Part shown: piece by piece, positions 1,504 through 28,357 of the stretch
Layout: every line of letters starts with the position of its first letter
Position numbering within the stretch: position 1 is the stretch's first letter
IMG/VR virus record: IMGVR_UViG_3300030451_006341
Location: 1 to 29,499 of that record
DNA length: 29,499 nt
Direction: 5' to 3' (one strand)
Source: a virus
Translations under genes and position numbers: made by a program
The notes under the pieces: generated by a model
The model's input: only the letters and a program-made list of their open reading frames with translations
What the model was told of the DNA's origin: nothing
Databases searched by the model: none

Positions 1504-2589
1504 CTATTTGATACCTGCTAGTCTTTTCATCCTATCCTGTAATGGATCGGATGGTGTGCTCTCTTGACGAGATGCACGAATAACTGATGAACGCTTGTTT
1601 CCAATTGCTTCGCTCAGCGATTGTGGGCTTCGTTTGGGCTTAGCCTCCACTGTGCTTTGAAGTGTCTCAAAAATTGTACGTGCTTCAGTTACAGAACCAG
1701 CATTAGAAATTGCTTCGACAATTTTAGTTTTTTGTCGCTCATTAAAGGAGGTATTCCTAAGTACACGGTTCGTATATAACAAGCGAGCGTTTGAAAGATT
1801 AACATCTTGCAAGTTTTCTTGCAATTCTTTCAGTGCTCCCTCATATTGTGAAAGCTTGCCAGTAAGTTGTTTATTTTCAAAAACTAACTCTTCTTGTGCT
1901 TTCTTTAAATCGTTCATTTCTTCTTCTACGTCTGTAGAACGGCGATGCGCCATTTCTTTTTCCATTTGATGAATTTTATCTTCTTCGCTTCTACCTGCCC
2001 ATCCAGCTAAATCAGCGCCCATATCAACAGTAAGCTTTTCCATTATAGCGCTAACAAGTGCGTCGGCATCAAGTTCTTCTTCCATTTGAAGATCCTTGTC
2101 TTCATCGGCTTCTGCTTTAGTTTTTTCAGCCGAAGGGTCTGCTGTTACAGCAACTTCTTCAAGATCTTCTTCTTCAGTTAATTCTTCATCATCTTCAGAA
2201 AGAATAGCGGCTAAGTCTTCTTCAGTCAATTCAATCTCTTCATCCTCACTAAGTTCAACCTCTTCATCCTCATTGAGTTCTGCTTCTAAGGCTGCAACAG
2301 CTTCCTGAAGTGCGTCTAAATCAATGTTTACCGAGACTTTTTCGCCAGATTCTTGCATGTTGTCTGGGATATCACCCTCTTCTTGTGATAGATTGTCTGT
2401 GGCTGCAAGTGGGATATTATTAGCGACGTTGCTTGGCGGGTTTGTTTGTTCTTCTTGTTCTAATAATTGTTCCAAAGTTGCTTTTACTTCTTCAGAATAT
2501 TTTTGGATAACAGAAGTTTCAGCGTTTTTAAGTGCTGACTCACGTAATGCTTTGGCATCAACAATAGCTTCTTTTAGTAAACTTGACAT
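1504..2589 (-). CDS. 22: Prohead core scaffold protein, T4 gp22-like
   Basis: This is the probable internal scaffold on which the capsid is built and which the prohead protease degrades. The 361-residue protein opens with a helical segment MSSLLKEAIVDAKALRESAL and LEQLLEQEEQ. A very acidic middle of Glu/Asp runs follows (about residues 90-180). A predicted coiled coil lies at about 205-270, then a basic C-terminal tail ending LQDRMKRLAGIK. Composition, this start and the position immediately before gp23 fit gp22, although it is longer than T4 gp22 (about 270 residues). The start has AGGAG nine bases upstream. The call rests on synteny plus composition more than on catalytic motifs. Confidence 0.88.
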   Translation of the reverse strand: MSSLLKEAIVDAKALRESALKNAETSVIQKYSEEVKATLEQLLEQEEQTNPPSNVANNIPLAATDNLSQEEGDIPDNMQESGEKVSVNIDLDALQEAVAALEAELNEDEEVELSEDEEIELTEEDLAAILSEDDEELTEEEDLEEVAVTADPSAEKTKAEADEDKDLQMEEELDADALVSAIMEKLTVDMGADLAGWAGRSEEDKIHQMEKEMAHRRSTDVEEEMNDLKKAQEELVFENKQLTGKLSQYEGALKELQENLQDVNLSNARLLYTNRVLRNTSFNERQKTKIVEAISNAGSVTEARTIFETLQSTVEAKPKRSPQSLSEAIGNKRSSVIRASRQESTPSDPLQDRMKRLAGIK

Positions 2590-4274: not shown

Positions 4275-4301
4275 TAGCTGTGTCTCCTGTACTAAGTAGG
4301 T

Positions 4302-5429: not shown

Positions 5430-5443
5430 AATTACCCTTCTCT

Positions 5444-5451: not shown

Positions 5452-5474
5452 AATTATATTATTAAATAGTCTTA

Positions 5475-5506
5475 TAAAAAAGGATGCCCCCACATGGGAG
5501 GCATCC
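5475..5506 (-). terminator. Rho-independent terminator
   Basis: On the minus strand GGATGCCTCCC, a short loop, GGGGGCATCC and then TTTTTT form a GC-rich stem of about ten base pairs (one G-T pair) with a classic U tract. The U tract exists only in the minus-strand reading, so it ends transcripts of the gene at 5539-7428. It is the clearest terminator in the window. Confidence 0.92.
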
Positions 5507-5538
5507 AAAAATATCAACAGATGTTGAAAAGTGTAATA

Positions 5539-9961: not shown

Positions 9962-10207
9962 TCACTTGTTTCTTCTATTGCGTCTTTCTTTTGCGCGTTG
10001 TCTTTTTAGTTCTTGCCTAATACGCGCTCTTTCTGCTTTTTTACGTTTTTCTTTTTTTGCAACAGATGGCTTTTTATAGCAACGACGATCTTTGACTTCT
10101 TCAACTATTCTTTCTTTCTTGCATTTTTTAATAAATTTACGTATCATTCTTTCAGAATTGCCGCGGCATTCTCTAGAGGATACTAATACATTACATTGTT
10201 TTTTCAT
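9962..10207 (-). CDS. rpsU: Ribosomal protein bS21-like protein
   Basis: This 81-residue, strongly basic protein aligns well with bacterial small-subunit protein bS21. NVLVSSRECRGNSERMIRKF corresponds to the family's VxVRENExxxxALRRF start. IKKCKKERIVEEVKDRRCYK followed by KPSVAKKEKRKKAERAR corresponds to the SCEKxGVLxEVRRREFYEKPxxxRKRKK core. The C-terminus is an Arg/Lys-rich tail as in the family. In bacteria bS21 sits near the anti-Shine-Dalgarno end of 16S rRNA and affects initiation. Phage copies are known, particularly from aquatic phages. It lies four bases after the previous stop inside the head-gene block. The ribosome site is weak (AAGTGA). Confidence 0.85.
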   Translation of the reverse strand: MKKQCNVLVSSRECRGNSERMIRKFIKKCKKERIVEEVKDRRCYKKPSVAKKEKRKKAERARIRQELKRQRAKERRNRRNK

Positions 10208-10211
10208 ATTT

Positions 10212-10622
10212 TCACTTCATTGCATTCCAAATTTGAGATGCCCCTCCAACAAGAGAGGATATATCAACACCTGAATCACCAGCATCACCAAGATCAACAG
10301 AGCCTGGCTTGTGTTGTGTTTGTGCTGGTGCTGGTGATGTGCCTTCAAACAAATCTACACCATTATAAGCGTCTTTGCCAATTGCGTCTAGCATACGTTT
10401 CTTGTGTTCTCTTAGTTTAACAGATTGTTTGTTTTTACGCTGAATGTCCCTATCAAGGTTTTCTTCAACAGGAGCGCGCTTTGTTTCAACAACAAGATTA
10501 TTTTGCATACCGTGTGCTACTTCAGATACAATATTAGACAATAAGCCTTCTTCTAATAACACTTCGTGTATACATTCTTTCACCAATGGTTTGATAGCCT
10601 TTTTCAAATCAGCTTTTTTCAT
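10212..10622 (-). CDS. Conserved prohead-region protein, possible head-core component
   Basis: This 136-residue protein starts MKKADLKKAIKPLVKECIHE followed by VLLEEGLLSNIV, an amphipathic helical N-terminus. A charged middle includes KLREHKKRMLDAIGKDAYNG and VDLFEGTSPAP, and the C-terminus is GVDISSLVGGASQIWNAMK. It overlaps the gp21 stop by 14 bases, with GAGG before the ATG, so it is translationally linked to the protease. Small core proteins (gp67, gp68) flank gp21 in T4, but I cannot show homology. The N-terminus carries L-L-E, a potential gp21 cleavage pattern. Confidence 0.7.
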   Translation of the reverse strand: MKKADLKKAIKPLVKECIHEVLLEEGLLSNIVSEVAHGMQNNLVVETKRAPVEENLDRDIQRKNKQSVKLREHKKRMLDAIGKDAYNGVDLFEGTSPAPAQTQHKPGSVDLGDAGDSGVDISSLVGGASQIWNAMK

Positions 10623-11217
10623 TTAAAACCTCGTTTAATAATCTGTTAATTCTGTCTGCTTTTGTAAATACTTTGTTTTGAAATTCTTTTGCTTCTTTCA
10701 TCATAAAAGCCCCAGGAGTTGATGGCTCAGAAACAAAATCAAAACAAATTAATTGAAAGTCATCTTCTACAACTGTGTTGCCTTGAGATTCAGAAACAGA
10801 ACCCATTCCACGAGAAGAAATACCAATACTTACACCAGCACTGACAAGTGATTGAAGTACTTGCCCAGAGGGAGTATCAAGAACTTTCGCCTTACCCATA
10901 ACATTTTTACCATCCCACCAAACATCAGTCATCATATGTGACGCGTTTCTAAGATTGATAACAGAATCATCAGGGTGATCTAGCTCTCCAAGAGCGCGGC
11001 GCTCTTTAACAAGTTTAGAATAATTTACCATTTCTCTTTTTAGTACATGTTCTGGATAAACTCTGCCGTTTCCATTTACAGTATCAGCTTTTTGAATTAT
11101 CCCAGTAAGCATCATACCACCATTCGATACAAAACGTTTTTCTTCTTCTGTAAGTAGATCTTGACAAACTCCACCATCGCAGAGTTCATAATACTCTCTA
11201 AGTAACTTCTGACCCAT
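10609..11217 (-). CDS. 21: Prohead protease, T4 gp21-like
   Basis: This is the serine protease that processes capsid and scaffold proteins inside the prohead. Among 202 residues the catalytic-type motifs are clear: GRVYPEHVLKREM at 51-63, GELDHPDD with His81, and GVSIGISSRGMGS with Ser134/Ser135, followed by FQLICFDFVSEPSTPGAFM. This is the S78/gp21 pattern, and the length is near T4 gp21. It is preceded by AAAGGA and followed by an overlapping small gene. T4 gp21 cuts after Glu in [I/L]-x-E, which matters for the many leader-bearing proteins in this window. Confidence 0.95.
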   Translation of the reverse strand: MGQKLLREYYELCDGGVCQDLLTEEEKRFVSNGGMMLTGIIQKADTVNGNGRVYPEHVLKREMVNYSKLVKERRALGELDHPDDSVINLRNASHMMTDVWWDGKNVMGKAKVLDTPSGQVLQSLVSAGVSIGISSRGMGSVSESQGNTVVEDDFQLICFDFVSEPSTPGAFMMKEAKEFQNKVFTKADRINRLLNEVLNEKS

Positions 11218-11592: not shown

Positions 11593-12204
11593 TTATTCTC
11601 CTAATGGTTCAATTTTAACTTTTCCAGAGTGTTCCCCAGACTGTATTCTAGCATCCATTACAGATTCAGCAGTAATGGTGCCTAATAGTTGAGATATTTT
11701 TGTGTTTGGGTCAACATCACCATTTACAGCATTTTCTATTTTGTCTTTCATAATTGAAAAAACTTGCTTTTCTGGCTCAGAAGGCCTGGTTATATTGCCA
11801 CCTTTGGTTTCAAGATCTCGCATAAATATTTGTAAATTATCGTTTAAATCAAAATATGAAGCTGCTGAGCCTGGTTTATATGTTCCATCTTCAATATCGG
11901 CAAATGCCATAATTGAGGCTTGCAGCATTTGCTCAACCACCTTTTCGGCAACAACCCCTGCCGCGGCGCCTGCTGCTACGCCAGCACCTGCAGTAGCAAC
12001 TCCAGTGGCAGCACCTAAGCCAACCCCCATAAGTTTGGCTACATATCCTCCATATTCGGCTGCAAACTTTTTCAGTGTACTTGGATCTTTTTCTTTAAAG
12101 TATTCAACAAGTTCTCCGATAGTCATTATTTCTTGAGGGGTTTTTTTTGTTATTCTTATTTCATTAACAACAAACTTATTCCAATTTTCTATTAAAGTTT
12201 TCAT
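11593..12204 (-). CDS. Capsid-targeting-like leader protein with Gly/Ala-rich hydrophobic segment
   Basis: This 203-residue protein begins MKTLIENWNKFVVNEI, the ENW-type leader shared with the products starting at 24057 and 20985. The leader resembles the T4 capsid-targeting peptide and contains LIE, an [I/L]-x-E site. Residues 58-86 form a long Gly/Ala hydrophobic stretch (LMGVGLGAATGVATAGAGVA continuing AAGAAAGVVAE), which could insert in a membrane. The rest is polar. No strong ribosome site is visible before the ATG, which follows the previous stop closely. Packaging in the head and ejection with DNA is an inference; no enzymatic domain is recognised. Confidence 0.7.
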   Translation of the reverse strand: MKTLIENWNKFVVNEIRITKKTPQEIMTIGELVEYFKEKDPSTLKKFAAEYGGYVAKLMGVGLGAATGVATAGAGVAAGAAAGVVAEKVVEQMLQASIMAFADIEDGTYKPGSAASYFDLNDNLQIFMRDLETKGGNITRPSEPEKQVFSIMKDKIENAVNGDVDPNTKISQLLGTITAESVMDARIQSGEHSGKVKIEPLGE

Positions 12205-17144: not shown

Positions 17145-17698
17145 TAATCATTAGTAGGTTTTGGTCTGGTGTCGTTTGAAGGGCGCTTACCACCGTCGCC
17201 AGTCCAACCACCTTGGTCAATAAATTTTCTAAAACTATCTTCTGGCTTTGTGTCTGCATCTGCTGACACAGCCATAGCTTCATCAAGACCACCAACACGA
17301 TAATGAATTTTGGCAGTTACCCAAGAGCGAACTTTGGAAGAGTTTTCAACGCGAACATCGATCTCCCCTTCTTTTGTTAATGTTACAGATTCACCACGAA
17401 TTTTGCGATATTCCTTTTTAAGAAAAGAGGCTATATCAGCCATGCGCTGCTCAACATCAGATTCAAAACCAGAGGCATATACTTCTTTTAATTGAACTTC
17501 TGACATATATGACAAGCACATAATGTTACCATGAAACTTAACTCCGAAGCCATCCATAACGCGCTTATCAAGTATAGGGTCACCTTCCTCTCTTTGGAGC
17601 CCAGCCTTTAGGGGTTCTCCTTTATCATCATGAGCACCATCATAAGCATTCGCTGCTGCTTGTGATAATCCTTGAATTATTTCATATACTGTTGCCAT
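17144..17698 (-). CDS. Conserved protein immediately before terminase
   Basis: This 184-residue protein starts MATVYEIIQGLSQAAANAYD with AAGGA nine bases upstream. It contains GVKFHGNIMCLSYMSEVQLK, a helical segment DVEQRMADIASFLKKEYRKI, then beta-like VTLTKEGEIDVRVENSSKVR and SWVTAKIHYRV. The C-terminus is disordered and polar (GGWTGDGGKRPSNDTRPKPT). Its position just before gp17 is where T4 has the small terminase gp16, but its content does not look like the coiled-coil gp16, so I do not assign that function. It is expressed with terminase via the TAATG overlap. Confidence 0.65.
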   Translation of the reverse strand: MATVYEIIQGLSQAAANAYDGAHDDKGEPLKAGLQREEGDPILDKRVMDGFGVKFHGNIMCLSYMSEVQLKEVYASGFESDVEQRMADIASFLKKEYRKIRGESVTLTKEGEIDVRVENSSKVRSWVTAKIHYRVGGLDEAMAVSADADTKPEDSFRKFIDQGGWTGDGGKRPSNDTRPKPTND

Positions 17699-18023
17699 TA
17701 TTTTGATCCTTATTGTTATCGGGGGCGCCCTTAATTTGTTTTTGTAGTAATTTCAGCACTCTTTGTAGAAGGGGGCGATGTTGAACTAGATCAACTCCAG
17801 GCTCAGATGCTAATTTTGAAATAAAATCTTCTAATTGATCAACAAGACCTTGTTCAGTTGTTGTAAATTCTTCACCTTGGCCTTTAATTCTATCGCGAAC
17901 AGTTTGCTGTCTTTGTGATGTTGACATAGCCCTGTTTATCAACTTAGTTTCATCATCTTTTGATTCTAACATTTCAAATTCTTCTAAAATAATTTGTTTT
18001 AATTTATCTTTATTGATCTTCAT
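17682..18023 (-). CDS. Small protein with QLKQII-type capsid-targeting-like leader
   Basis: This 113-residue protein begins MKINKDKLKQIILEEFEMLE, one of five such leaders in the window, with ILE as a potential gp21 cut site. The body is helical and charged (STSQRQQTVRDRIKGQGEEF, LVDQLEDFISKLASEP, LLQRVLKLLQKQIKG) and ends in an Asn/Asp-rich tail. GGAG is six bases before the ATG, and the gene overlaps both neighbours by 14-17 bases. It could be an internal head protein; no enzymatic motif is seen. Confidence 0.68.
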   Translation of the reverse strand: MKINKDKLKQIILEEFEMLESKDDETKLINRAMSTSQRQQTVRDRIKGQGEEFTTTEQGLVDQLEDFISKLASEPGVDLVQHRPLLQRVLKLLQKQIKGAPDNNKDQNNGNSI

Positions 18024-18396
18024 TTGGTCTCCATCCTTCTATCCATCTTTCTTCTCTGCCCTCAACAAATTTAATGTAGCAATGGTTACAGCACTTAAAT
18101 TTTATTAAAGACACATCATCTTTAACGCCTTTTGGAAAAGCATTACAAATTGGACAATTTTTCAATGATTCTCTATTAAGTAGTTTTTTTGATATCTTTA
18201 TACCATCAACATCTATTTTTTCTGAGTACTCTCTTTTTTTATTATTTTTAGAATACAAATCTTTCATTTGATTTAAGTATTCTTTTTCTTTGTTTTCATC
18301 CCAATGAGATTTAGGATTGGCTACAGCTTGTTCACCATATTTTTCTTTTATTGCCTTCTCTACAGCAACTAATTTATTGTAATCTTTGTCACTCAT
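18010..18396 (-). CDS. Zinc-ribbon-like small protein of unknown function
   Basis: The protein has about 128 residues from the ATG at 18396 (MSDKDYNKLVAVEKAIKEKY). An earlier ATG at 18417 lies further inside the previous gene and lacks a ribosome site. The C-terminal half holds CPIC and, 20 residues on, CCNHC (NCPICNAFPKGV, KFKCCNHCYIKFVEGREERW). This four-cysteine pattern suits one zinc ion. The N-terminal half is charged and helical with NPKSHWDENKEKEYL. The ATG overlaps the upstream stop by eight bases. Nucleic-acid or protein binding is possible, but the function is unknown. Confidence 0.65.
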   Translation of the reverse strand: MSDKDYNKLVAVEKAIKEKYGEQAVANPKSHWDENKEKEYLNQMKDLYSKNNKKREYSEKIDVDGIKISKKLLNRESLKNCPICNAFPKGVKDDVSLIKFKCCNHCYIKFVEGREERWIEGWRPNEDQ

Positions 18397-18817
18397 TGAA
18401 TACTTTATATGCTCCATATGAAATGGCCATACCGCTTGCTACACCAATAGCAACCCATAAAGCTGGATTTGTTTTAGATTGTTTTTTTAAAGCATTTGCC
18501 AGTGCATCTGCTTCTCTTTCTAAGGACTGAACTCTCATGTCATACTCTGCTAGTAATGCGTCATGCCTTATAGTTAAGTTTTGTAATTGTAGCTCATGTT
18601 CAACTTTTTGTTTATCTAATTCGTATTGTAATACTAGACTACAGTTATCATCGGCTGTTTGTGCTTGTGCTAATATGCTTGCTGTCGCAGTTGGATCAAA
18701 TAAAACACCTTCAAATGGAGCACACTGGTTCTCACCAAGGAATGTAAACTTACCTGGCGTAGTGGCAGTCGCGTTATTGCTCCACAAACTCAAAGCCAAA
18801 AGTGTTAACAATCTCAT
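18389..18817 (-). CDS. Secreted or membrane coiled-coil protein, possible spanin-like component
   Basis: I chose the ATG at 18817 because AAGGAGG sits nine bases upstream; an in-frame ATG at 18856 lacks a ribosome site. The 142-residue product starts with a signal-like segment MRLLTLLALSLWSNNATA. It then has APFEGVLFDPTATASILAQA, a coiled-coil region (YELDKQKVEHELQLQNLTIR, MRVQSLEREADALANALKK) and a C-terminal membrane helix (ALWVAIGVASGMAISYGAYK). There is no lipobox. The start lies 44 bases inside the preceding membrane coiled-coil gene, an arrangement typical of spanin pairs. The topology with a C-terminal anchor is unlike classic outer spanins, so this is tentative. Confidence 0.6.
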   Translation of the reverse strand: MRLLTLLALSLWSNNATATTPGKFTFLGENQCAPFEGVLFDPTATASILAQAQTADDNCSLVLQYELDKQKVEHELQLQNLTIRHDALLAEYDMRVQSLEREADALANALKKQSKTNPALWVAIGVASGMAISYGAYKVFNE

Positions 18818-19160
18818 TTGACAGTGCCTCCTTGTCTTGAGAGAAAAGTCTTTCATATGTTTCTAGTCTCTTTTGCTTTTCTTTCTCTAATTCTTTTTGT
18901 GATTTTTCATAGTTCTTACGCAACTCTCTTAGTGCTTTCTTGTAAGTGTCAAGCGCGTGCTCCCGTCGCGCTATCTCTTCACTATGAATAGCCTGTAGAG
19001 CATCAATACGTTCGCGGGTTTCTTCTTTAGAAATCTCGTATGCTTTATTAAGAGCGCGATAATCCATTTGAGTTTTTACCGACACAGCAAGCAAAGAAAC
19101 GACTACCAATATTTCTTTCCAATTTTTAAGACAAAATTGTAATACTTTTGCCCACGTCAT
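18774..19160 (-). CDS. Membrane-anchored coiled-coil protein, possible inner-spanin-like
   Basis: This 128-residue protein has one N-terminal membrane helix (EILVVVSLLAVSV at about 16-28) followed by a long charged coiled coil (YEISKEETRERIDALQAIHS, KALRELRKNYEKSQKELEKE, then KQKRLETYERL). This is the architecture of an inner spanin, the type II membrane protein linking inner and outer membrane at lysis. It overlaps the upstream holin-like gene by ATGA and contains the start of the downstream signal-bearing gene. The role is inferred from topology and gene arrangement, not from sequence homology. Confidence 0.6.
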   Translation of the reverse strand: MTWAKVLQFCLKNWKEILVVVSLLAVSVKTQMDYRALNKAYEISKEETRERIDALQAIHSEEIARREHALDTYKKALRELRKNYEKSQKELEKEKQKRLETYERLFSQDKEALSNEIVNTFGFEFVEQ

Positions 19161-19351
19161 GCTACCCCCTTGAGTTTAGCAATACCATCAATTACGGTTT
19201 GACCGCCAATATAGATAGCAGAGATAATGACCCAATCGCTCGAAGCTAAATCAGAAAACGCTAACAAGCCTGTTGCTGTTAGCCATACAAGAAACTTGCG
19301 TGAAATCATTTTTTCTACAAGGCGATCTAATTTGCCCTGAACGTATCTCAT
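19157..19351 (-). CDS. Small two-helix membrane protein, holin-like candidate
   Basis: This 64-residue protein starts MRYVQGKLDRLVEKMISRKF. The ATG at 19351 is in a TGATG overlap with the upstream stop, preferred over GTG at 19354. Two short hydrophobic segments, FLVWLTATGLLAFSD and WVIISAIYIGGQTVIDGIA, are separated by a small polar turn, and the N-terminus is basic and amphipathic. Size and topology suit a holin, and the next two genes look like a spanin pair. No endolysin gene is visible nearby. The assignment is by topology and context only. Confidence 0.5.
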   Translation of the reverse strand: MRYVQGKLDRLVEKMISRKFLVWLTATGLLAFSDLASSDWVIISAIYIGGQTVIDGIAKLKGVA

Positions 19352-20184
19352 CACTTTTTACCTCGATTTTTCTTTGCAATATTAGTTGCTGCTCCATACA
19401 TTACATTTTCAGCATCTTTACCATATCTTTTCTTAAAATCTTTTTTATTCTTTTTCATGCCTTTTACAATATCTTCTTTTTCATCTTCTTCTGCATCAGT
19501 AAGTTCTCTTTCTGCTACACGACGATATGGGACATCAGTTGGATCTACTGTAGGTCTTACGGCTACAGAGTCACACTGCGAGCCTTTGCCACCAGAGATT
19601 TGTATGTCACTAATCACTCTTTTCATTCCAAAAGCTATTAAATCTGCATCGTGCCCCATTGTTTCTAATTCTTGCATATAACATGTTAACAACTCTTGTA
19701 AATCACCTTTTATGATATCAATAGGTCTTTGTTCACCAGCTTGGTAAACTCGTTCGTTTACTGGATCAAAATCTGGATCGGCTCCAGAAAGATAGTTTAA
19801 AACTGTGTTGATGTAATCGTGCGCTTTTGTAATTTTTGATTCAACCCACTCTTCGTGATCGTCACTTTCATCTACCATTGCTTGTAGTTCTTGCACCATT
19901 TGAGATAAATTATTCAATTGTCTGACAGCCATAGAACCTTCACCACCATGGCCTTCGTCTAATGACCCTTTTTTATTGTGGGGAGTGGCAAACCTACCAA
20001 GAGCCTTTTGCATCGAACCAACAGTAAAAGGATCTTCGCCCGTAACAGCAGAAGTTAAGTAATCAATGCTTACATCTAAACCTTCAATACTATCAGTCAA
20101 CTTGTTAATTGCTTTCATCATTGCTGGATCGGTTCCAATTTCTTCGACAATAATTTGTTTAAGCTGGCTTTTGGTAATTTTCAT
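19351..20184 (-). CDS. QLKQII-leader protein with KKNKKDFKKRYGKDA tail module
   Basis: I set the start at the ATG at 20184 (MKITKSQLKQIIVEEIGTDP), which has AAGGA at eight bases and begins the leader; an ATG ten codons earlier adds only a nonconserved extension inside the previous gene. The 277-residue product has IVE as a possible gp21 site. A helical acidic body follows (QLNNLSQMVQELQAMVDESD, LQELLTCYMQELETMGHDAD). The basic C-terminal module is VKGMKKNKKDFKKRYGKDAE followed by NVMYGAATNIAKK. That tail motif recurs, as I recall, in marine phage proteins, with unknown function. A packaged internal protein is the favoured inference. Confidence 0.7.
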   Translation of the reverse strand: MKITKSQLKQIIVEEIGTDPAMMKAINKLTDSIEGLDVSIDYLTSAVTGEDPFTVGSMQKALGRFATPHNKKGSLDEGHGGEGSMAVRQLNNLSQMVQELQAMVDESDDHEEWVESKITKAHDYINTVLNYLSGADPDFDPVNERVYQAGEQRPIDIIKGDLQELLTCYMQELETMGHDADLIAFGMKRVISDIQISGGKGSQCDSVAVRPTVDPTDVPYRRVAERELTDAEEDEKEDIVKGMKKNKKDFKKRYGKDAENVMYGAATNIAKKNRGKK

Positions 20185-20185
20185 A

Positions 20186-20485
20186 TCACAATCCTTTCCA
20201 GATATAATTAGCATTTAAACGCGGGTGTTCTGACTTGAAATCTGAAATAGCTTCCTTTACACTATCCTCGTTGGCATCTCCTTGATACCAATCAACGAAC
20301 AATTCAACTATTTTAAATTTTTCAATATTGCTTTGTTTAACCTTTGAGTTTTTTAAAAGTTCAACAAATATCTGTTCTACTGAAGACTTTTCAACAATTG
20401 CAGCACCTTCACCTGCAGGTTGCTCTGGCTTTTGTTGTGGTTCTTCTTTGTCAAACCAGTCTTTAATATCGTTCCATAAACTCAT
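20186..20485 (-). CDS. Small acidic protein of unknown function
   Basis: This 99-residue protein starts MSLWNDIKDWFDKEEPQQKP, followed by a Pro/Gln/Glu-rich linker. A helical domain follows: VEQIFVELLKNSKVKQSNIE and FKIVELFVDWYQGDANEDSV, ending NANYIWKGL. The start overlaps the upstream stop by ATGA. No leader of either type and no known motif is present. It sits between two leader-bearing genes and is presumably co-expressed with them. Confidence 0.6.
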   Translation of the reverse strand: MSLWNDIKDWFDKEEPQQKPEQPAGEGAAIVEKSSVEQIFVELLKNSKVKQSNIEKFKIVELFVDWYQGDANEDSVKEAISDFKSEHPRLNANYIWKGL

Positions 20486-20985
20486 AATTCTTTAAAATCC
20501 TTTAGCGCTTTGTGTAAAGCTTGAATAACACCATTGTTAAGGTGAGAATATTGTGGAGGATCTTTCATGGCATCCTCGGCAGCTTCTTGCAACATGCGTG
20601 CTAATTTTCTTTCGACTTGCTGAACAGTCATAATTCCATAGCCAGGAATTTGAAGATCTGGACTACGTGATTGGCCGCGGCTATAATCTCTAAGTTCTTC
20701 GTTCATTTCTTGTCGGCTTGCTAAATCTTGATACATTTCTTCTTCATCCATATAGCCCATGGTTTCGCCATTTTGAAGAGTGACAACAGCGATATGTTTG
20801 CCATCTGTAGTTTTAGCAAACATCACTTGCACATTAAATTTATCAGCTAAATCTTCCATAGCTTCTTTTTCAGCCATTTCAGGCTCTACATAATCTTCAC
20901 CAGTATCGATATCAGCAACAGCGCGACCTGGCTCGTATTCTGCTTCGTTTAAAGACTTACGCCAATTTTCAAATAGTTTTTTCAT
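20482..20985 (-). CDS. ENW-leader protein of unknown function
   Basis: I chose the ATG at 20985, which gives MKKLFENWRKSLNEAEYEPG, the ENW leader shared with the genes at 12204 and 24057. It lies just after the upstream stop at 21005, whereas the longer reading frame back to 21069 would run into the previous gene. LFE is an [I/L]-x-E site. The 167-residue product is acidic, with EPEMAEKEAMEDLADKFNVQ, VMFAKTTDGKHIAVVTLQNG and a C-terminal helical part (MTVQQVERKLARMLQEAAED). The ribosome site is weak (TGGAT). Packaging in the capsid is inferred from the leader. Confidence 0.65.
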   Translation of the reverse strand: MKKLFENWRKSLNEAEYEPGRAVADIDTGEDYVEPEMAEKEAMEDLADKFNVQVMFAKTTDGKHIAVVTLQNGETMGYMDEEEMYQDLASRQEMNEELRDYSRGQSRSPDLQIPGYGIMTVQQVERKLARMLQEAAEDAMKDPPQYSHLNNGVIQALHKALKDFKEL

Positions 20986-21004
20986 GTTGCTAATCCATTT
21001 ATAC

Positions 21005-21307
21005 TTATGCTGAGACCGAAACGCCTTTAGCGATTGTTTTTCCTTTACATTTAGTTGTAAAACCGTCATACAGTTTTTTAATAAACTCGGCTTGTTGATC
21101 CAAGTCTTCGCGAGTTATCATACCAGAACCTAAGTACGCTTCAAGCGATGCGTATCCCTGTCTAGCTTTCCCTATCTCGGCTTCAAGCTTGCCACAATTA
21201 ACTTCAGCAGATGCGCTTGTAGTATAATCGTCAAAGTCATCTTCACCTAAATAAGATTGTATTTCTTCTTTGATAAGTTCTTTAAGTTGTTGTTTGGTTA
21301 ATTTCAT
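21005..21307 (-). CDS. Small QLKELI-leader protein
   Basis: Start at 21307 (MKLTKQQLKELIKEEIQSYL), supported by AGGAGA seven bases upstream; a further in-frame ATG nine codons earlier overlaps the tubulin-like gene. The 100-residue product has IKE as a possible protease site and an acidic linker (GEDDFDDYTTSASAEV). A helical domain with two Cys residues follows (VNCGKLEAEIGKARQGYASL; KLYDGFTTKCKGKTIAKG). No known fold is recognised. It is probably a member of the internal-protein set. Confidence 0.65.
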   Translation of the reverse strand: MKLTKQQLKELIKEEIQSYLGEDDFDDYTTSASAEVNCGKLEAEIGKARQGYASLEAYLGSGMITREDLDQQAEFIKKLYDGFTTKCKGKTIAKGVSVSA

Positions 21308-21317
21308 TTTAAATCTC

Positions 21318-22457
21318 CTATGTTGCCAACCCATTCATACTTAGTATCGCAATCAATCCAGGCACATTCTTTCTGACATAAACGCCAGAGAAAAGTGTCT
21401 CGCATCGACCGCCGACATAAGCGATTGCCGACTCAATATTTTTGCTGATTTTTGGGTCAGCCACCATCTCTTCTGACACAACCAACACCAACGAGCCCGC
21501 AGCGGCCTTACCTTTCGGCGGGGGGCATGCTGACCTGTTCATACAGTTATGGAGAATCACCGATCCAAGCTTAGCAGTGTTTGGGTCTTTTATCATGGTT
21601 GAGCCCATAAAGGCCCTGCCGTTATTACCCAAACATGTTTCCAAATCTTTGCTATCAAAAGATTGAATCGGTGAATCCTCAGTGGAGAGTTTTAACACTT
21701 GGGCTAACGACTTAGCAAATTGTGTGTTTGCGACAGGATACATGCCAAGCATGCCAATTCTGCCACGAAGTAAACGAGTGGAGCGCTCGTTGTCTAAAAC
21801 AATATGCGGATGCTTAGCAACATCATTTGCTAGTGTCAACGCATTACGAGCGATTGTAGGATTAAGATTTTCTTGTGCTGTTGGCCATGAGACTATATAA
21901 ATGACCTTGCCACTTGACTGCACAGAGCGCATGTAACGCTCAAAGACAGGATGCAAAGCGGCAACAGAACTACCTGTCCCACCACCACCGCCAGCAAGGA
22001 CGAATAACCAATCAACTTTACCGAGTTTGATGCGGAGAGCATCTTCAACAATTGCACCATTTTGACTTAAAACCTCTTTTCCATATTCAGTGTTCTTGCC
22101 GATTCCATCAGAATCGGGTATAAGGACAACGTGGTCCTCTTCGACATTCTTTGGAATGTCTTTGCCTGTTGTGTTGACAAGCAACGTTTTGTTAAAACCA
22201 AGCTCTATAAAAGCATTAGCCATTTTGTTGCCTCCACCGCCGACGCCAACAAAGCCCACATTTATCGAAGAAGGAGCGGTGTTTTCTGGGAGTAAATCTT
22301 CATCAGAGTATTCCATCTGTAATCCGAAATCCTCGACCATTCCGAAATCTTCTGCTGCGACTTCTTCATGATAGTGGTCTTTCTCCTGATTGAAGGAGGG
22401 TGGTGGCTCTGCGGGAGGCAGAAAATCAAATTCGTTGTTATCGTTATCACCTGACAT
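21318..22457 (-). CDS. FtsZ/tubulin-like GTPase
   Basis: Start at 22457 (MSGDNDNNEFDFLPPAEPPP), with AAGGA at eight bases. The 379-residue product has an acidic, Pro-rich, probably disordered N-terminus (1-64) and then an FtsZ-type fold. INVGFVGVGGGGNKMANAFI at 65-84 is the first nucleotide loop, and VLAGGGGGTGSSVAA at 153-167 is the tubulin GGGTGS signature. HIVLDNERSTRLL is at 218-230. FDSKDLETCLGNNGRAFMGS at 267-286 aligns with the FtsZ T7 loop DFADVxTVM...GxAMMGS and keeps the two catalytic-type aspartates (268, 271). A C-terminal domain follows, without an obvious FtsZ-tail peptide. It could form filaments that position DNA or capsids, or interfere with host division; this is inference. 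Confidence 0.88.
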   Translation of the reverse strand: MSGDNDNNEFDFLPPAEPPPSFNQEKDHYHEEVAAEDFGMVEDFGLQMEYSDEDLLPENTAPSSINVGFVGVGGGGNKMANAFIELGFNKTLLVNTTGKDIPKNVEEDHVVLIPDSDGIGKNTEYGKEVLSQNGAIVEDALRIKLGKVDWLFVLAGGGGGTGSSVAALHPVFERYMRSVQSSGKVIYIVSWPTAQENLNPTIARNALTLANDVAKHPHIVLDNERSTRLLRGRIGMLGMYPVANTQFAKSLAQVLKLSTEDSPIQSFDSKDLETCLGNNGRAFMGSTMIKDPNTAKLGSVILHNCMNRSACPPPKGKAAAGSLVLVVSEEMVADPKISKNIESAIAYVGGRCETLFSGVYVRKNVPGLIAILSMNGLAT

Positions 22458-22476
22458 ATTGTAATCCTTAATACTG

Positions 22477-23088
22477 TTATTGACCAAATCTACCAGTCAG
22501 CCAATCTCGCCTAAGTTTTTGTGCGATATCTCCAATATAAATTGCGTTATCTACACTTAAAAACGGCTCATCAGAATCAACTCCAGGCGCATTGTTTTGG
22601 GCTTCAGCATACTCTGCAATCTCTTCAAGTTTCTCTATAATTTGCAAAGCTTGAAACTGAACTTTTTTAAGGCCATCGGGGTCTTTTGTTGTTACCATTA
22701 CATTTGAATTATTCTCAATTTTTGGACGACCAGTATAGCTTTGTAATTTTTCAGCCTCTTTCGCCAACACATTGTGTATTACAGCTAAATCTCTACTGTA
22801 GGGATCATAAAAGCCCATTGCCAGTTCATTTCTTCCTATTCGCTCTTTTGGGTCAATGACAAAAACACCACCCATTTTATTAATAAGTTGTCTAAATTCA
22901 GAAATAAGCTTCGTGTACATTTCGTCTGCGTCTTGTGCTCTACGCTGACCACCGTATTTGTCGACGTCACCTGCTGCAGCATCTACGTCAGCCATGGAAA
23001 AAGCCATTTCGTCCATGGCCATTTCGCTCATTGTATTTTTAAGTTCTTCAAGAACAATTTGTTTAAGTTGTGTTTTTGTAATTTTCAT
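22477..23088 (-). CDS. QLKQIV-leader protein of unknown function
   Basis: This 203-residue protein starts MKITKTQLKQIVLEELKNTM, nearly identical in its first 15 residues to the product starting at 20184. The leader has VLE/LEE, close to the [I/L]-x-E cleavage pattern. A Met/Glu/Asp-rich linker follows, then a folded-looking domain (MYTKLISEFRQLINKMGGVF, DPKERIGRNELAMGFYDPYS, LQALQIIEKLEEIAEY) ending IGDIAQKLRRDWLTGRFGQ. AAGGA lies ten bases before the ATG. No enzymatic motif is recognised. It lies between the ParB-like leader gene and the tubulin-like gene. Confidence 0.68.
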   Translation of the reverse strand: MKITKTQLKQIVLEELKNTMSEMAMDEMAFSMADVDAAAGDVDKYGGQRRAQDADEMYTKLISEFRQLINKMGGVFVIDPKERIGRNELAMGFYDPYSRDLAVIHNVLAKEAEKLQSYTGRPKIENNSNVMVTTKDPDGLKKVQFQALQIIEKLEEIAEYAEAQNNAPGVDSDEPFLSVDNAIYIGDIAQKLRRDWLTGRFGQ

Positions 23089-23100
23089 AATATTATTTCC

Positions 23101-24057
23101 TTATTCTGCGGCCTTTTTCTTATCAGTCGCGAATGGCGATCTAAAATCTACTTGTCCCTTCTCAAGCGGTTTAAGGGCGGCGGGTGTATCACCACCAGCG
23201 CTAACCTTAGAGCCCGCGGGGGCATCTGTTTGAGGCATTGGTTCTCTGGAGCTTGCACCTGATACTGGTTTATTGTTAGACTGCATTAGATCGATGTTTC
23301 TTTCGTAGATACCTAAAAGTCTCTGTGCTACTTCTTGTGCTCTTTTTTCTGATCTGCCACCAGCTTGGTCAGTAGGATCGCCACCAAGGCCACCTTTACC
23401 TGTAAGGAGCCCTAATTTAATATATTCTGGCACAAGTTTCGGATTTTCGTTTATAATTTTATAAACCTGTTGTGTTAAAGTTTTTTGATCAATTGTAAAT
23501 AAATTTATACCGCCGCCTTGATTAGAGGGAACCTCGCCTGCATACGCCTTGATTGACGCTTGCATTAGTTTAAGGGCATTGAGTGGGCTTACAGGTAACT
23601 TAATATTAAACGCATACATTTCCGCGTTCGGGTTTACACAAAAAAGCGATGACCATCGATGATGACCATCAAGAACAAATTTTCCATTAAGAACAATAAT
23701 CGCATCATTTCCAGGTGGGCCTACTTTAAATGGACCATTGGATTTTAAGTAAGTCATAAACACTTGTGGCTTTTTTAAAGCAAAAGGAATAGATTTATCA
23801 AATACAACTTCTGCTTGTGTTGGTCTTAAATCAGCACATTTCACTGTTACGGGCTCAATAGAAACTGTGTCATCGCCTTCTTTGCCATCTTTGGCGCCAG
23901 CCAATACAGTTTGTATTATATCTTTTCTATTAGACTGCATTGCTTTTACAAACTGTGGTAGCGACATTTTAAGGACTTGAGCCGATGTAACGCCCCCTGC
24001 AGATACTTCTTCTTGTTCGTTTACAAATTTATTCCAATTCTCTAGTATTAATTTCAT
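23101..24057 (-). CDS. ENW-leader protein with ParB/sulfiredoxin-like domain
   Basis: This 318-residue protein begins MKLILENWNKFVNEQEEVSA, an ENW-type leader with ILE as a possible gp21 site. Residues 66-150 resemble the ParB/Srx fold: VSIEPVTVKCADLRPTQAEV, then IIVLNGKFVLDGHHRWSSLF with the DGHHRW box at 130-135 (compare the ParB GxxR nucleotide-binding box). The C-terminal third has GLLTGKGGLGGDPTDQAGGR, a helical stretch and a Pro/Ser/Gly-rich tail. The ATG overlaps the upstream stop as TAATG. Modern ParB-like domains can bind CTP, or act as nucleases or kinases; which applies here is unknown. Head packaging is inferred. Confidence 0.72.
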   Translation of the reverse strand: MKLILENWNKFVNEQEEVSAGGVTSAQVLKMSLPQFVKAMQSNRKDIIQTVLAGAKDGKEGDDTVSIEPVTVKCADLRPTQAEVVFDKSIPFALKKPQVFMTYLKSNGPFKVGPPGNDAIIVLNGKFVLDGHHRWSSLFCVNPNAEMYAFNIKLPVSPLNALKLMQASIKAYAGEVPSNQGGGINLFTIDQKTLTQQVYKIINENPKLVPEYIKLGLLTGKGGLGGDPTDQAGGRSEKRAQEVAQRLLGIYERNIDLMQSNNKPVSGASSREPMPQTDAPAGSKVSAGGDTPAALKPLEKGQVDFRSPFATDKKKAAE

Positions 24058-27000
24058 TATTGATTTACCCTTGCGTAGCCTTGTTTCTTTTCAATTACAA
24101 TTTGCATGTCAACACAATCTTTGAGCGAATCAAGGTGTGAGATCAGCAAAACGTTCTTAAAATACACTTTAATTAGTTCCAATATTCGAATAAAACCCGA
24201 CATATTATCTTCGTCTAGTGCAGTTCCAGGCTCGTCAAGGATAAAAATATCACCAGTAGGCAACGAAGAGACACCAAGAAGGGCTAATCGGATTGCCATG
24301 GCAGACAATGATTTTTCTGCACCCGACGCCATTTCAATAGGGCGCTCTTCATACTTGGGGTGCTTAATGAAAATATCAAATTTATTTCCTGTGGCTTCAA
24401 AAAATACTTCGAAATCAACAATGTTAGCAAGAACTTTTGCAATCTCTTCGTTAATTACTGGTATCTTTTTCTTAATGACGTCGTATGCGATACCATTAGG
24501 GTGCATGCATTGCATATACAGATCATAGGCAGCAAATTCACGCTGTAGATCTTGATACTCTTGCTTTTGTTCTCGCAGGTTTTCTACCTTTTGTTCATAT
24601 GTTCCAACAAGCTTAATTGTTTCAAGAACGTTCTCTTCACAAATGCCAATTTGTGATTGCTTGGTCTTGATACTTCTTGTGATTGATTTCTGCTCTGCGA
24701 TTAGTTTTTCAAGATTTTCAATTACATCTTTGTTGTCTTCATACTCGTTAATTTGTTCAGTCACAGTCTTTAAAGCAAATTGTGTTTTTGCCTTGAGAGT
24801 ATTATTTTTCTCTCGCGACAACTTAAGACTTGCAATGTTGTTTTCATGTGTTTGTATGCTGTCGCGCATAACCTGATAATGTTCAATTTGTTGTGCCACT
24901 TCACTTGCGTTTAGCGCTGCGAGCGAAAGTGATGCTTGGCTAAGCTGATTTTGGTGTTGCTCTTTTGTTGCAGCAGCTACGTTGGCGTCTTTAACAAACG
25001 GATTTTCACAACAATAGTGACAATTAGGATCATATTCGTGGTCCTCAAGCATCTTTATTTTTTTGTTAATGCTTGCAAGTTTTTGCTGCATTTGATTTAT
25101 GTCAGCATTGAGAGCATCAATCGCCTGCTGATCACTTTGCAGCTTCTCATAATCAACAAGAACCAGCGCTTCCTTTAATTCTTTAACAGCATGACTTTTG
25201 TTTGTAATACTATCGGTTTGTTTTTTAATTTTATTTGCCAAATCGACGACTTGATGTGCTTTGTCTTGCTGTTGATCAAGTAGCTTGTGAATATCAATAA
25301 ACTCAGCTGGAATGTTATCTATTTGATTTTTAATCGCCACATGTTTTTGAGAAAGCATTGCTAGTTCATTTTTTAGCAATGAGCATGCAGCTTTATTTTG
25401 TTCTGCAGATACCCTATAGTCTGACAAGCTTACCAAAGCTGCTTCAATTTCTTCATCAAAGTTTTTGTCTTCTAGTCTTTTAATGGCCCCTTTAAGGTCT
25501 ACAGAGTCTTCTTTTGCTAATTTAAACTTGCGCTCAAACTGCTCAAGATCTAAAAACTTGGCTATAATTTCTTTACGTCGAGTTGACCCCTCGTCAATAA
25601 AAGCCAACGCACCGTGTTGTGATGACAGTGAAGATACAGAAAAATCTTCAAGAGTACCAAGTTGTCGTCTAATATTTGCATCGGTTAAAGTGCGTGTAAG
25701 GCCGTTTAATGATTCAACGGTGTCCATTACAGGATTATACACTTCAAAATTAAGTTCTGTTTTTGCTTCAAGAGTTTCTTCGCCTTTCAATCTCTTGATA
25801 TACTTCTTAGCTGAGCGTTCAACAGTGTAAATCTTTTCACCAATTTGTATGCGCACTTTGCCACGGCAATCTTCTTTGTTTTGATTGATAACGTTAAGGT
25901 TTTTACGTTCATTTTTTGACGTAGAATTAAACAGTGTCCAAAGCACACCATCAATAATCGACGATTTACCCGAGAAGTTTTTACCAAAGATGCCAATGAT
26001 ACCATCTAAATCTTCAAAATTAACTTTATTGCTGTCACCATAATTGAAAAGGTTATCAAACTCAAAATCAACAAGCTTCCAATTAATATTTCTTGATACA
26101 TCTTCGTTGTCCTCAATAACTTTATTGTAACGCTTGTTTAATTCATAAACCTTTTCTAGTGTTTTATTCTCGACTTCATATGCTACAAGATATTCATCTA
26201 TAAGTTCTTCTTGTACATCAATATCTCGTAGATTTTCTGTGCGTAATCCATCGGTCAATGCATCTACAGAGCCTCGCTCGCCTGATGCTCGATTAAGGAA
26301 CGAAATTGTTTCTGGTTTAAATCTATGCTTTGCGATATCCACCGCCCGCTTCATCACATCAAGCGGAAGATTGTTATTGCTAACGAGCCGCAGACGAGCA
26401 CCAAACGGAATAGATATATTTCTGGGCATTCGTCCCTTTTGTGTGAGTTCGATTGTAATGAACGGCTTGGGGTTTGTAAGGCCGACATGTCTAGTGCTCC
26501 ATATATTTTTATCTTTAATGTTCCAAATTAAATAACCTTTATCGTTGCTCTCGCCATGGTTTTGTTGTACAAGAGAACCAGGGTATTTTGCTCGACCTTC
26601 TTTGTCAACTTTCTGATCAGTCTTGTGGATATCACCAAGCATAGCATAGTCATACTTCTCAAGTTCATCAAGAGAAATATCACCATGCGTCATCATCCAA
26701 CCACTATCTGTGACTGAGCCAACAACAGAACCATGATATAAGGCAATGTTAACACGATCTTCTGGCAAATCTTTTTGCCAGTTTTCTGGATCCACAATAG
26801 ATAAAACATGCAAATCGATACCATCTGCTACCTCCACCACTGATGCATATTTATGAAAATGTATATTGGGGTGATCAAGGTACTCTACGATTGGTGAGAT
26901 AGCGTCTAAACGTCCACTATTCTTAAGGTTCATGTCGTGGTTACCAAGTATCATATGATATGGAGCAATATCGGCAAGACCGACAAATAACTCACTCATC

Positions 27001-27179
27001 ATTTTAATTGCTTCTGGTGACATATCCAACTTAGTATGGAATGTGTCGCCAGTGTTCACAATAATATCTGGCTTTTCGTCACGTAGTGACTGATATAATT
27101 CTTCAAATACTACTTTGTATTCTTTATGATAACGTAATTTTCGGATATGGATATCCGATACATGTGCAATTTTAATCAC
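24057..27179 (-). CDS. 47-46: Fused gp47-gp46 (SbcD-SbcC/Mre11-Rad50-like) recombination nuclease
   Basis: This single 1040-residue chain combines both subunits of the recombination exonuclease. The N-terminal metallophosphoesterase has HVSDIHI (Asp9, His11), NTGDTF (Asp45), GNHDMN (80-84), YHG (His149) and GDIHK (182-186). The ATPase follows, with GIFGKNFSGKSS at about 393-404 (Walker A), a coiled coil with a zinc-hook CHYC (Cys720, Cys723), signature ASGAEKSLS at about 953 and FILDEPGTALDED at about 981-993 (Walker B and D-loop). T4 encodes gp47 and gp46 as separate genes totalling about 900 residues. The start is GTG with AGGAG six bases upstream. A sigma70-type promoter lies about 190 bases upstream. 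Confidence 0.95.
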   Translation of the reverse strand: MIKIAHVSDIHIRKLRYHKEYKVVFEELYQSLRDEKPDIIVNTGDTFHTKLDMSPEAIKMMSELFVGLADIAPYHMILGNHDMNLKNSGRLDAISPIVEYLDHPNIHFHKYASVVEVADGIDLHVLSIVDPENWQKDLPEDRVNIALYHGSVVGSVTDSGWMMTHGDISLDELEKYDYAMLGDIHKTDQKVDKEGRAKYPGSLVQQNHGESNDKGYLIWNIKDKNIWSTRHVGLTNPKPFITIELTQKGRMPRNISIPFGARLRLVSNNNLPLDVMKRAVDIAKHRFKPETISFLNRASGERGSVDALTDGLRTENLRDIDVQEELIDEYLVAYEVENKTLEKVYELNKRYNKVIEDNEDVSRNINWKLVDFEFDNLFNYGDSNKVNFEDLDGIIGIFGKNFSGKSSIIDGVLWTLFNSTSKNERKNLNVINQNKEDCRGKVRIQIGEKIYTVERSAKKYIKRLKGEETLEAKTELNFEVYNPVMDTVESLNGLTRTLTDANIRRQLGTLEDFSVSSLSSQHGALAFIDEGSTRRKEIIAKFLDLEQFERKFKLAKEDSVDLKGAIKRLEDKNFDEEIEAALVSLSDYRVSAEQNKAACSLLKNELAMLSQKHVAIKNQIDNIPAEFIDIHKLLDQQQDKAHQVVDLANKIKKQTDSITNKSHAVKELKEALVLVDYEKLQSDQQAIDALNADINQMQQKLASINKKIKMLEDHEYDPNCHYCCENPFVKDANVAAATKEQHQNQLSQASLSLAALNASEVAQQIEHYQVMRDSIQTHENNIASLKLSREKNNTLKAKTQFALKTVTEQINEYEDNKDVIENLEKLIAEQKSITRSIKTKQSQIGICEENVLETIKLVGTYEQKVENLREQKQEYQDLQREFAAYDLYMQCMHPNGIAYDVIKKKIPVINEEIAKVLANIVDFEVFFEATGNKFDIFIKHPKYEERPIEMASGAEKSLSAMAIRLALLGVSSLPTGDIFILDEPGTALDEDNMSGFIRILELIKVYFKNVLLISHLDSLKDCVDMQIVIEKKQGYARVNQ

Positions 27180-27190
27180 ATATTCTCCTA

Positions 27191-27343
27191 TTAGTCTTTG
27201 GGGATCTCAATACTCATTAAGATGTCAAGCTGCTTATCGTTAAGCAAGTCATCGTTAAGGTTTACACCATTGTCTCCCGACAACGAAAGGTAAGAAATAA
27301 ACCCGAGAGTGAATCCAAAAATAATTGTTTTAGCAAGTTTCAT
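27191..27343 (-). CDS. Short single-helix membrane peptide
   Basis: This 50-residue product starts MKLAKTIIFGFTLGFISYLS and ends ILMSIEIPKD. The N-terminal half is a membrane helix or uncleaved signal; the rest is polar and acidic (GDNGVNLNDDLLNDKQLD). GGAGG lies seven bases before the ATG, and it is the first gene after a strong promoter-like sequence, both supporting real expression. It ends 12 bases before the GTG of the recombination nuclease. Function unknown; small early membrane peptides often act on the host, but that is speculation here. Confidence 0.7.
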   Translation of the reverse strand: MKLAKTIIFGFTLGFISYLSLSGDNGVNLNDDLLNDKQLDILMSIEIPKD

Positions 27344-27361
27344 GTGTGCCTCCATAATATT

Positions 27362-27390
27362 ACTATAGCACTTATGAATAGGGCTGTCAA
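27362..27390 (-). promoter_or_regulatory. Strong sigma70-type promoter
   Basis: The minus strand reads TTGACA (27390-27385), a 17-base spacer, then TATAGT (27367-27362). This is a perfect -35 and a -10 with one mismatch at ideal spacing, lying between the stop at 27398 and the small gene starting at 27343. Transcription would begin near 27355 and cover the membrane peptide and the gp47-gp46 fusion. It fits early expression by host polymerase. Confidence 0.85.
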
Positions 27391-27397
27391 GAACTTT

Positions 27398-28357
27398 TTA
27401 GCGTGTTTGTAATGGTCGACCAATCCTATACATTGTATCTTTAACAAATTTGTTGAACCCAGCTTCATCTTGTACACCAAGTGCTTGGTATAGTTCTCCA
27501 CGGCCTTCTGGGTTATCTATATGGTAGTCCATCAGTTCAATTGTTTTTTCTTCCATTAAATCAGCGTATACAGTGTACGCCACTGTCCAATCAGGTGGTA
27601 AAATTTGTGAACCGTCTTCTGCTACTTTGAAGTTTTGGTTAGGATTACCAGTGCCGCCAGACCACTTACCTACGTCACCATACACCATGTTTTTAAGAAG
27701 AGGTAATTCCGTCATTGGATCTTTTGCAACTCTGTCTTTTAGTGCGTTATAATAATCTCCAGCTTTGGCCCCTGCTAGTGGCAGCACGGTATCAACATCA
27801 ATCTGGCTAGCTGGGACCATCTTATATTTGTAAATCCAAACAGAACTTGACACAGGCGCATCGTCAAGCGCAGGCTCACTTAAATCATACTGGCCCCAAA
27901 GCGCTTTGCTTTTTTCAAATCGATCCATACCATGAAATTTTTCATCATCCATACCAGAACCAAAAACATCTGCAAAACCTAATTCGTCGTCTTGTACTTG
28001 TAATTCAATATTATCTTGATTGGAAGCACTATCTCCACTACCCGCCAGGTATGCACCAGTCATGCCGCCGCCCCAAATAGACGCTACTAGTGCTGCAGGT
28101 ATCGCAAGACGCTTAGCAACTCTAGCTACAGCTTCTGCATTATCACCAGCTTTAACAACTAAGTTGCGTATTTTCTCTTTCATATCCTCAGTTAACATTT
28201 CTTCGTTTAACTTTTTCTTGGATGTAAGAGCTAAAATTGCTTTAATAACTTTATCATCGAGCGGAACAGTCTCGCCTCGATGTGGTTTAAGAAAGTTTTC
28301 CATTAAGGCAATTTCTTCAAATATAATATTTAATAATTGTTGTTCAGTAAGTTGCAT
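27398..28357 (-). CDS. Leader protein with membrane segment, unknown function
   Basis: This 319-residue protein begins MQLTEQQLLNIIFEEIALME, a divergent member of the QLKQII leader set with IFE as a possible gp21 site. A helical region runs to about residue 80 (EDMKEKIRNLVVKAGDNAEA). A hydrophobic segment follows at about 85-107 (LAIPAALVASIWGGGMTGAY). The large remaining domain is acidic and Trp/Tyr-containing (GVQDEAGFNKFVKDTMYRIG near the end). No ribosome site precedes the ATG, and a CTATTTAT motif lies only three bases upstream, so initiation is unusual. It may be a packaged, membrane-interacting protein. Confidence 0.68.
   Translation of the reverse strand: MQLTEQQLLNIIFEEIALMENFLKPHRGETVPLDDKVIKAILALTSKKKLNEEMLTEDMKEKIRNLVVKAGDNAEAVARVAKRLAIPAALVASIWGGGMTGAYLAGSGDSASNQDNIELQVQDDELGFADVFGSGMDDEKFHGMDRFEKSKALWGQYDLSEPALDDAPVSSSVWIYKYKMVPASQIDVDTVLPLAGAKAGDYYNALKDRVAKDPMTELPLLKNMVYGDVGKWSGGTGNPNQNFKVAEDGSQILPPDWTVAYTVYADLMEEKTIELMDYHIDNPEGRGELYQALGVQDEAGFNKFVKDTMYRIGRPLQTR

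Follow-up and report, generated by a model that had tools for sequence, protein, structure and literature searches.

Two interchangeable N-terminal leaders on unrelated proteins of a phage with a T4-type head: a probable modular system of capsid targeting and processing

Why should a phage place the same short N-terminal sequence in front of proteins that have nothing else in common? The question is raised by the first 29,499 nucleotides (positions 1-29499, the whole stretch analysed here, called the window) of a 114,207-bp viral contig, IMG/VR record IMGVR_UViG_3300030451_006341. Five minus-strand open reading frames (ORFs) of the window, with starts at 18023, 20184, 21307, 23088 and 28357, share an N-terminal leader, and from residue 23 onward no similarity is seen among their products (best E 0.71), as an earlier note on this DNA had described. 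That note took the leader for a T4-like modular tag cut by a protease of the gp21 type. We find that two leaders are in use, here named type A and type B, that both families end in the gp21-type motif, that the two are exchanged between homologous cargoes, and that a gp21-type protease and a gp23-type capsid protein are encoded in the same genomes. It is probable, in our judgement, that the leaders form a modular system of capsid targeting and processing of the T4 internal-protein type, with one tag that is T4-like and one that is new. The core of the earlier account is thus strengthened by the protease, the motif at the leader boundary, the swaps and the T4-like type B. It held for the five type-A genes and missed type B, which occurs three times in the window and is the closest to the T4 sequence.

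Where does each leader end? The T4 gp21 protease cuts after L/I-x-E (PMC9026906). The type-A consensus is MKITKxQLKQIIKEELExVLxE, with the putative cut after the final E. At least 318 type-A proteins with mutually non-redundant cargoes were collected from the IMG/VR leader matches listed and from other loci, and their selection put no constraint on residues 16-22. Residues 1-16 are strongly conserved and residues 17-22 less so, with V19, L20 and E22 preferred; from residues 23-24 conservation is at background. The motif [LI]xE, with its E at residues 19-26, is present in 54% of the proteins against 7% downstream, and [LI]xD, [LI]xK, [LI]xQ, [LI]xG, [LI]xS and [LI]xA are all below background at the same place. 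It was observed in 165 proteins, against a mean of 67 in within-protein shuffles. A held-out set (n=66), which was chosen by residues 1-9 alone and whose cargoes are absent from the first set, has the same core IIxEE and the same [LI]xE end (48% against about 8%). The earlier note had seen [IL]xE in four of the five leaders of the window, and the motif is there, at residues 12-14. The cut that it placed between E14 and E15 was rejected as the main site, for conservation continues to residue 22 and the residue after such a cut (P1') would be E. The type-A cut probably lies at about residue 22 rather than residue 14, since the conserved block reaches residue 22 and the likely capsid site described below reads LL[RK]E followed by [SAGN].

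The type-B leader is MKLLLENWRKFLNE followed by the putative cut, with the pattern MKxLxENWxxF..E. In 221 type-B proteins, for which W8 and F/Y11 were required and L12 and E14 stood outside the selection, the junction reads [LI]xE in 81% against 7%, and [LI]xD in 0.9%. Type-B leaders with one inserted residue retain hydrophobic-x-E (YMLKE, FIIKE, YLITE), which is easier to reconcile with a protease site than with a helix register. As whole families, then, both leaders end in the L/I-x-E of gp21, strictly so in the 54% and 81% given above.

Is a leader a fixed part of the protein behind it? Depending on the phage, homologous cargoes carry leader A or leader B, as in L067 and L234 (67% identity) and in the further pairs L067/L042, L009/L054 and L108/L168. 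When L213 or L147 is compared with L148, L187 and L221, the swap falls at the predicted cut (YLSE/SH, AYLNE/AH, LFLE/SH, LFTE/SH, with the cut at the slash). Two cargoes of the contig studied are among the swapped ones. In L065 a type-A leader immediately precedes the C-terminal half of the type-B protein starting at 20985 (79% identity), and in L128 a type-B leader precedes most of the type-A protein starting at 110909 (93% identity). Cargo homologues with other N-termini also exist, and the cargo repertoires vary greatly from phage to phage.

Is there an enzyme to process the leaders? A prohead core protease of the Peptidase_S77 (T4 gp21) family is encoded at 10609..11217 on the minus strand (E 7.5e-34; PHROG 207, E 3.9e-56), and it is the enzyme that we propose. 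Its likely site can be read from the capsid protein. In 18 relatives the capsid proteins have a conserved L[RK]E near residue 60, with S, A, G or N mostly following, and the capsid protein of the contig itself has LLRE and then S at 1291-1302; by this conservation LL[RK]E followed by [SAGN] is likely the place where the capsid protein is cut. Of 34 leader contigs, 21 were found to have the S77 protease, and of the 14 among them that are at least 120 kilobases (kb) long, 13 were. In unrelated control contigs, all 11 of which have neither leader pattern, it was found in 3/11 overall and in 3/7 of those of at least 120 kb.

How widely do the leaders occur? They are present in this phage and in hundreds of uncultured relatives. 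Of 46 large viral contigs, 29 match a relaxed DNA pattern of the type-A leader and none match the reversed pattern, a control that rules out a chance origin. The two leaders often share a genome: 7 of the 16 contigs chosen by leader A also match the B pattern, and 12 of the 18 chosen by leader B also match the A pattern. Both patterns are absent from the 12 named phages screened (T4, KVP40, S-PM2, Syn9, P-SSM2, HTVC008M, RM378, Cr30, phiM12, Mel-JY01, immuto and one uncultured giant phage), and tblastn of the short leaders against named phages gave nothing useful. The match in L462 (Streptococcus phage Sfi19) was rejected as chance, because no ORF of at least 70 amino acids begins there.

What might the leaders do? 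In the scenario that we infer, for docking, packaging, cleavage and injection alike, the N-terminal leader helix would dock on the prohead core during head assembly and so bring its cargo into the prohead. The S77 prohead protease would then cut after the [LI]-x-E at the leader end, near residue 22 in type A and at residue 14 in type B, which would free the cargo and clear the leader. The cargo would remain in the filled head, and at least the enzymes would enter the next host with the DNA. Type B would represent a lengthened T4 sequence, aromatic-x-x-aromatic-[LI]-x-E, and type A a different amphipathic helix. Recombination would let cargoes gain, lose and exchange the two interchangeable leaders.

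The nature of the cargoes bears on the last step. Some of 130 type-B proteins match nudix hydrolase, zeta toxin/AAA kinase, protein kinase or GNAT families, and others match RNase T (exonuclease), 2H phosphodiesterase-like or SAM-lyase families. Their domains begin a few residues past the leader, the P-loop at residue 22 and the nudix domain at residue 18. Four SAM-lyase-like proteins above the Pfam cut-off bear type-B or B-like leaders, three of which end in NE/AG, NE/SG and RE/SG. In the contig itself, the type-B protein at 109143-109751 has a HAD fold with its motifs intact. In its predicted structure (mean predicted local distance difference test, pLDDT, 85.5) residues 1-13 are below 50 and the fold begins near residue 20, so that the leader is a low-confidence helix outside the well-predicted fold. 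The nearest solved structures are HAD phosphatases with a template modelling (TM) score of about 0.48, too low for a substrate to be assigned. Type-A cargoes are smaller than type-B ones, and their family matches are limited to YkuD and DUF6321. Delivery into the host seems moderately likely for the enzyme cargoes, which are mostly of type B. The small type-A proteins may be retained in the head or degraded as core proteins. A bolder possibility, which we think rather doubtful, is that the two leaders are two addressing codes, A and B differing in the core partner on which they dock or in the time of docking. The A set would then build the core or stay in it, the enzyme-rich B set would be injected, and a leader swap would reassign the destination of a cargo. 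If true, this would mean sorted multi-effector delivery on a scale far larger than that of T4.

A number of observations weigh against a targeting and processing system. In the window a strict [LI]xE stands at the proposed cut in two of the five type-A and one of the three type-B leaders, and the remaining ones end in MxE, in VxE or without the motif. Elsewhere nearly half of the type-A leaders lack a strict site at residues 19-26, and the preference of the capsid site for a small P1' residue has only a weak counterpart after type A. Family matches are lacking for most type-A cargoes. Three of the seven large control contigs have the S77 protease with neither leader. A conserved helix might have its binding partner outside the core, and the likeness of leader A to the N-terminus of the core protein encoded beside the protease (score 16.2, highest shuffle score 12.8; 40% probability) is suggestive at most. 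A search for virion proteomics found none, and the phage and its near relatives are known from metagenomes only.

Could other explanations account for the leaders better? One is that the tagged proteins are core or scaffold parts that act in assembly and are then degraded or kept in the head, and that they are not injected effectors. The gp21 protease of T4 also processes the core proteins gp22, gp67 and gp68 (PMC9026906), and here the type-A genes are small, mostly without family match and clustered upstream of the protease gene, with a leader that weakly resembles the N-terminus of the protein adjoining the protease. The clustering, which suits the targeting and processing system as well, can be given in numbers: in 12 of the 19 contigs having both features most type-A genes are 5-20 kb upstream from the protease gene, and 38 of 69 type-A genes are within 20 kb upstream of it, all on the protease strand, compared with 8 of 37 type-B genes, which are more scattered. 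Essential scaffold parts, however, would hardly vary so greatly in repertoire or swap leaders, and many type-B cargoes are enzymes; we consider this explanation unlikely. Another is that the leader is an amphipathic helix directed not to the capsid but to, for example, a membrane, a partner in the host or a complex with a regulatory role. By sequence, both leaders do have the character of amphipathic helices, and it is from sequence that their function is deduced. But such a helix leaves unexplained why the leader ends exactly in [LI]xE with LxD depleted, why the motif persists in shifted type-B leaders and why its spacing is T4-like, which makes this alternative very improbable.

Is it then the peptide or the DNA that is conserved? 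The leader might be kept as DNA and not as peptide, either as a cassette that is selfish or serves recombination or as a region of translation initiation. At several positions the codon choice in the leaders is indeed more biased than cargo usage (E14, for instance, is GAA in 93% against 67%), which suggests that leaders spread by recombination too. Yet synonymous codons differ at most leader positions, which indicates that the peptide is the conserved level, and for this reason we rejected an element acting at the DNA level as the principal explanation. In addition, the two leaders are unrelated in sequence and still exchanged on the same cargo, and conservation stops at the protein motif. 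A DNA-level origin thus appears extremely improbable, and the modular targeting and processing system is the reading that we prefer.

Which genes carry the leaders in the contig? A search of this whole phage for leaders, which the earlier note had recommended, added two type-A genes and six type-B genes, three of the latter in the window, and brought the tagged genes of the contig to 13. All five type-A genes of the window lie on the minus strand. The first (17682..18023, 113 amino acids, leader at about 17964-18023) begins MKINKDKLKQIILEEFEMLE, followed after the putative cut by SKDD; four orthologues retain a hydrophobic-x-E end (VINE, VLSE, VLEE, ALSE) ahead of the same cargo. The second (19351..20184, 277 amino acids) begins MKITKSQLKQIIVEEIGTDP and has no [LI]xE at residues 19-26. 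Its cargo family is widespread, with an A leader in every example seen. The third (21005..21307, 100 amino acids) begins MKLTKQQLKELIKEEIQSYLGE, then the putative cut and DDFD, with [LI]xE at residues 20-22. The longest ORFs for 20184 and 21307 start 30 and 27 bases further upstream, respectively; orthologues support the ATG of the leader as the start of both. The fourth (22477..23088, 203 amino acids) begins MKITKTQLKQIVLEELKNTMSE, then the putative cut and MAMD, and has MxE instead of [LI]xE at 20-22; its product had no match among named phages by tblastn. The fifth (27398..28357, 319 amino acids) begins MQLTEQQLLNIIFEEIALME, then the putative cut and NFLK, and has an orthologue in L106 with 56% identity and the N-terminus MNFTEEKLLQIILEE. 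Two further type-A genes start outside the window at 111068 and 110909, also on the minus strand. The type-B genes of the window, again on the minus strand, are at 11593..12204, one gene from the protease gene (MKTLIENWNKFVVNE, then the putative cut and IRIT), at 20482..20985 (MKKLFENWRKSLNE, then the putative cut and AEYE) and at 23101..24057 (MKLILENWNKFVNE, then the putative cut and QEEV). Those outside it start at 106372 (a variant), 109751 and 111507.

Some features around these genes deserve mention. The second type-A protein ends in a 'VKGMKKNKKDFKKRYG' module (19351-19470, minus strand; PHROG 12788). The module, VKGMKKNKKDFKKRYGxDAExVMYATATKxAK, closes six type-A leader proteins; a C-terminal tag common to all type-A proteins was sought, and it was found in these six only. 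At 110421-110909 (minus strand) a mini-domain, KCWxGYxxxGMKxMFGKxYPNCVxK, stands behind three different N-termini, among them MLNDEQILLKTANLLDTLQE, which is perhaps a third leader type. Within the island of type-A genes, 21318-22487 (minus strand) encodes an FtsZ/tubulin-like protein with glycine-rich nucleotide-binding motifs, and its best matches across these phages have 91-97% identity. Next to the third type-B gene, a 1040-amino-acid protein at 24057-27179 (minus strand) looks, by sequence motifs alone, like a fusion of gp47 and gp46 (SbcD/SbcC type), the subunits of a recombination nuclease. An extreme tandem array is seen in L439, where 3 kb (3063-5939) contain the starts of eight genes bearing the MKITKxQL leader.

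The head module is T4-type, and the contig holds both a gp21-type (S77) prohead protease and a gp23-type capsid protein. On the minus strand the order is terminase-like protein, portal, protease, small core-like protein, probable scaffold and capsid, with a portal protein related to T4-type portals. The major capsid protein gp23 (1..1470, minus strand, family match to PF07068) extends past the window edge. Adjoining the protease gene, 10212..10622 (minus strand) encodes a small protein with the weakly leader-A-like N-terminus MKKADLKKAIKPLVKECIHEVLLEEG, which is a probable prohead core component. The product of 1504..2589 (minus strand) has no family match and is probably a gp22-like scaffold, given its position just before the capsid gene, its acidic composition and its conservation. 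Directly downstream of the core and protease genes, 9962-10207 (minus strand) encodes a small basic protein resembling ribosomal protein S21, and Mel-JY01 has an annotated S21 near the corresponding place.

How might these genes be transcribed? The motif CTATTTA is strongly strand-biased (471 sense against 42 antisense) and sits upstream of structural genes. On the minus strand it is found just upstream of structural and leader genes at 28368, 2629, 5451-5469, 9469 and 9961 of the window and at 109765 and 111519 of the contig; the site at 28368 is 11 nucleotides before the ATG of the fifth type-A gene. It stands upstream of B genes in 14% and of A genes in 8% of cases, where 1.5% is expected, and is a probable late promoter of this phage group. 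Before type-B genes it is often 11-12 nucleotides from the ATG, a spacing from which near-leaderless mRNAs would result.

If the targeting and processing system is real, a tag of 14 or 22 residues would reveal, from sequence alone, which proteins of uncultured phages are loaded into the head and probably injected. Hundreds of candidate host-takeover and counter-defence proteins, mostly of unknown function, would then be at hand in a phage group known only from metagenomes. The T4 internal-protein principle would extend well beyond the few proteins of T4, and new short tags would become available for loading proteins into phage heads.

How does the system compare with known ones? A literature search for the leader strings found none, and equivalent descriptions turned up for T4, P1 and SPN3US only. 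The head propeptides of SPN3US and phiKZ-type phages are also N-terminal and cut by the prohead protease after x-x-E, two of them being 20-24 residues long (PMC10052503), but their specificity is AxE and they are not one tag on many unrelated cargoes. DarB of phage P1 has an N-terminal capsid-targeting signal able to take a reporter into the head (PMC9024508); phage and signal are different. T4 Alt, an injected ADP-ribosyltransferase, is an enzyme packaged and injected with a short N-terminal propeptide (PMC9026906). It is, however, a single protein and not a bearer of a shared leader, and no sequence relation to it is claimed.

The closest parallel is with the T4 internal proteins. There, as here, a short N-terminal leader ending in [LI]xE is common to unrelated proteins, the phage has an S77 protease, and leaders and cargoes are modules that recombine with one another (PMC9026906, PMC12373910). 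In Ip1-3 the leader is the sole shared part, and after injection these proteins inhibit different type IV restriction enzymes (PMC12373910), which gives a precedent for delivery. For IPIII, ten N-terminal residues are enough for targeting; among them 4 and 7 serve mainly targeting, and 8 and 10 processing (PMC9026906). The N-terminus of ipII and ipIII, read from the record, is MKTYQEFIAE, with A after the cut. Aligned by sequence, type B places W8-x-x-F/Y11-L12-x-E14 with the spacing of Y4, F7, I8 and E10 of IPIII. When a motif was generalised from T4 and type B, its sole hits were ipII and ipIII in 48 kb of T4 and, in this contig, four genes, all of type B; as it was written with both sequences known, this is a consistency check and not a blind test. 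Type B differs from the T4 leader in its ENW core and in being four residues longer. Type A, about 22 residues long and without aromatics in its core, differs in sequence altogether, and we file it as working like the T4 capsid-targeting sequence while falling outside that sequence family. Unlike in T4, the two leaders are used here side by side, and the cargo repertoire across the relatives is far larger.

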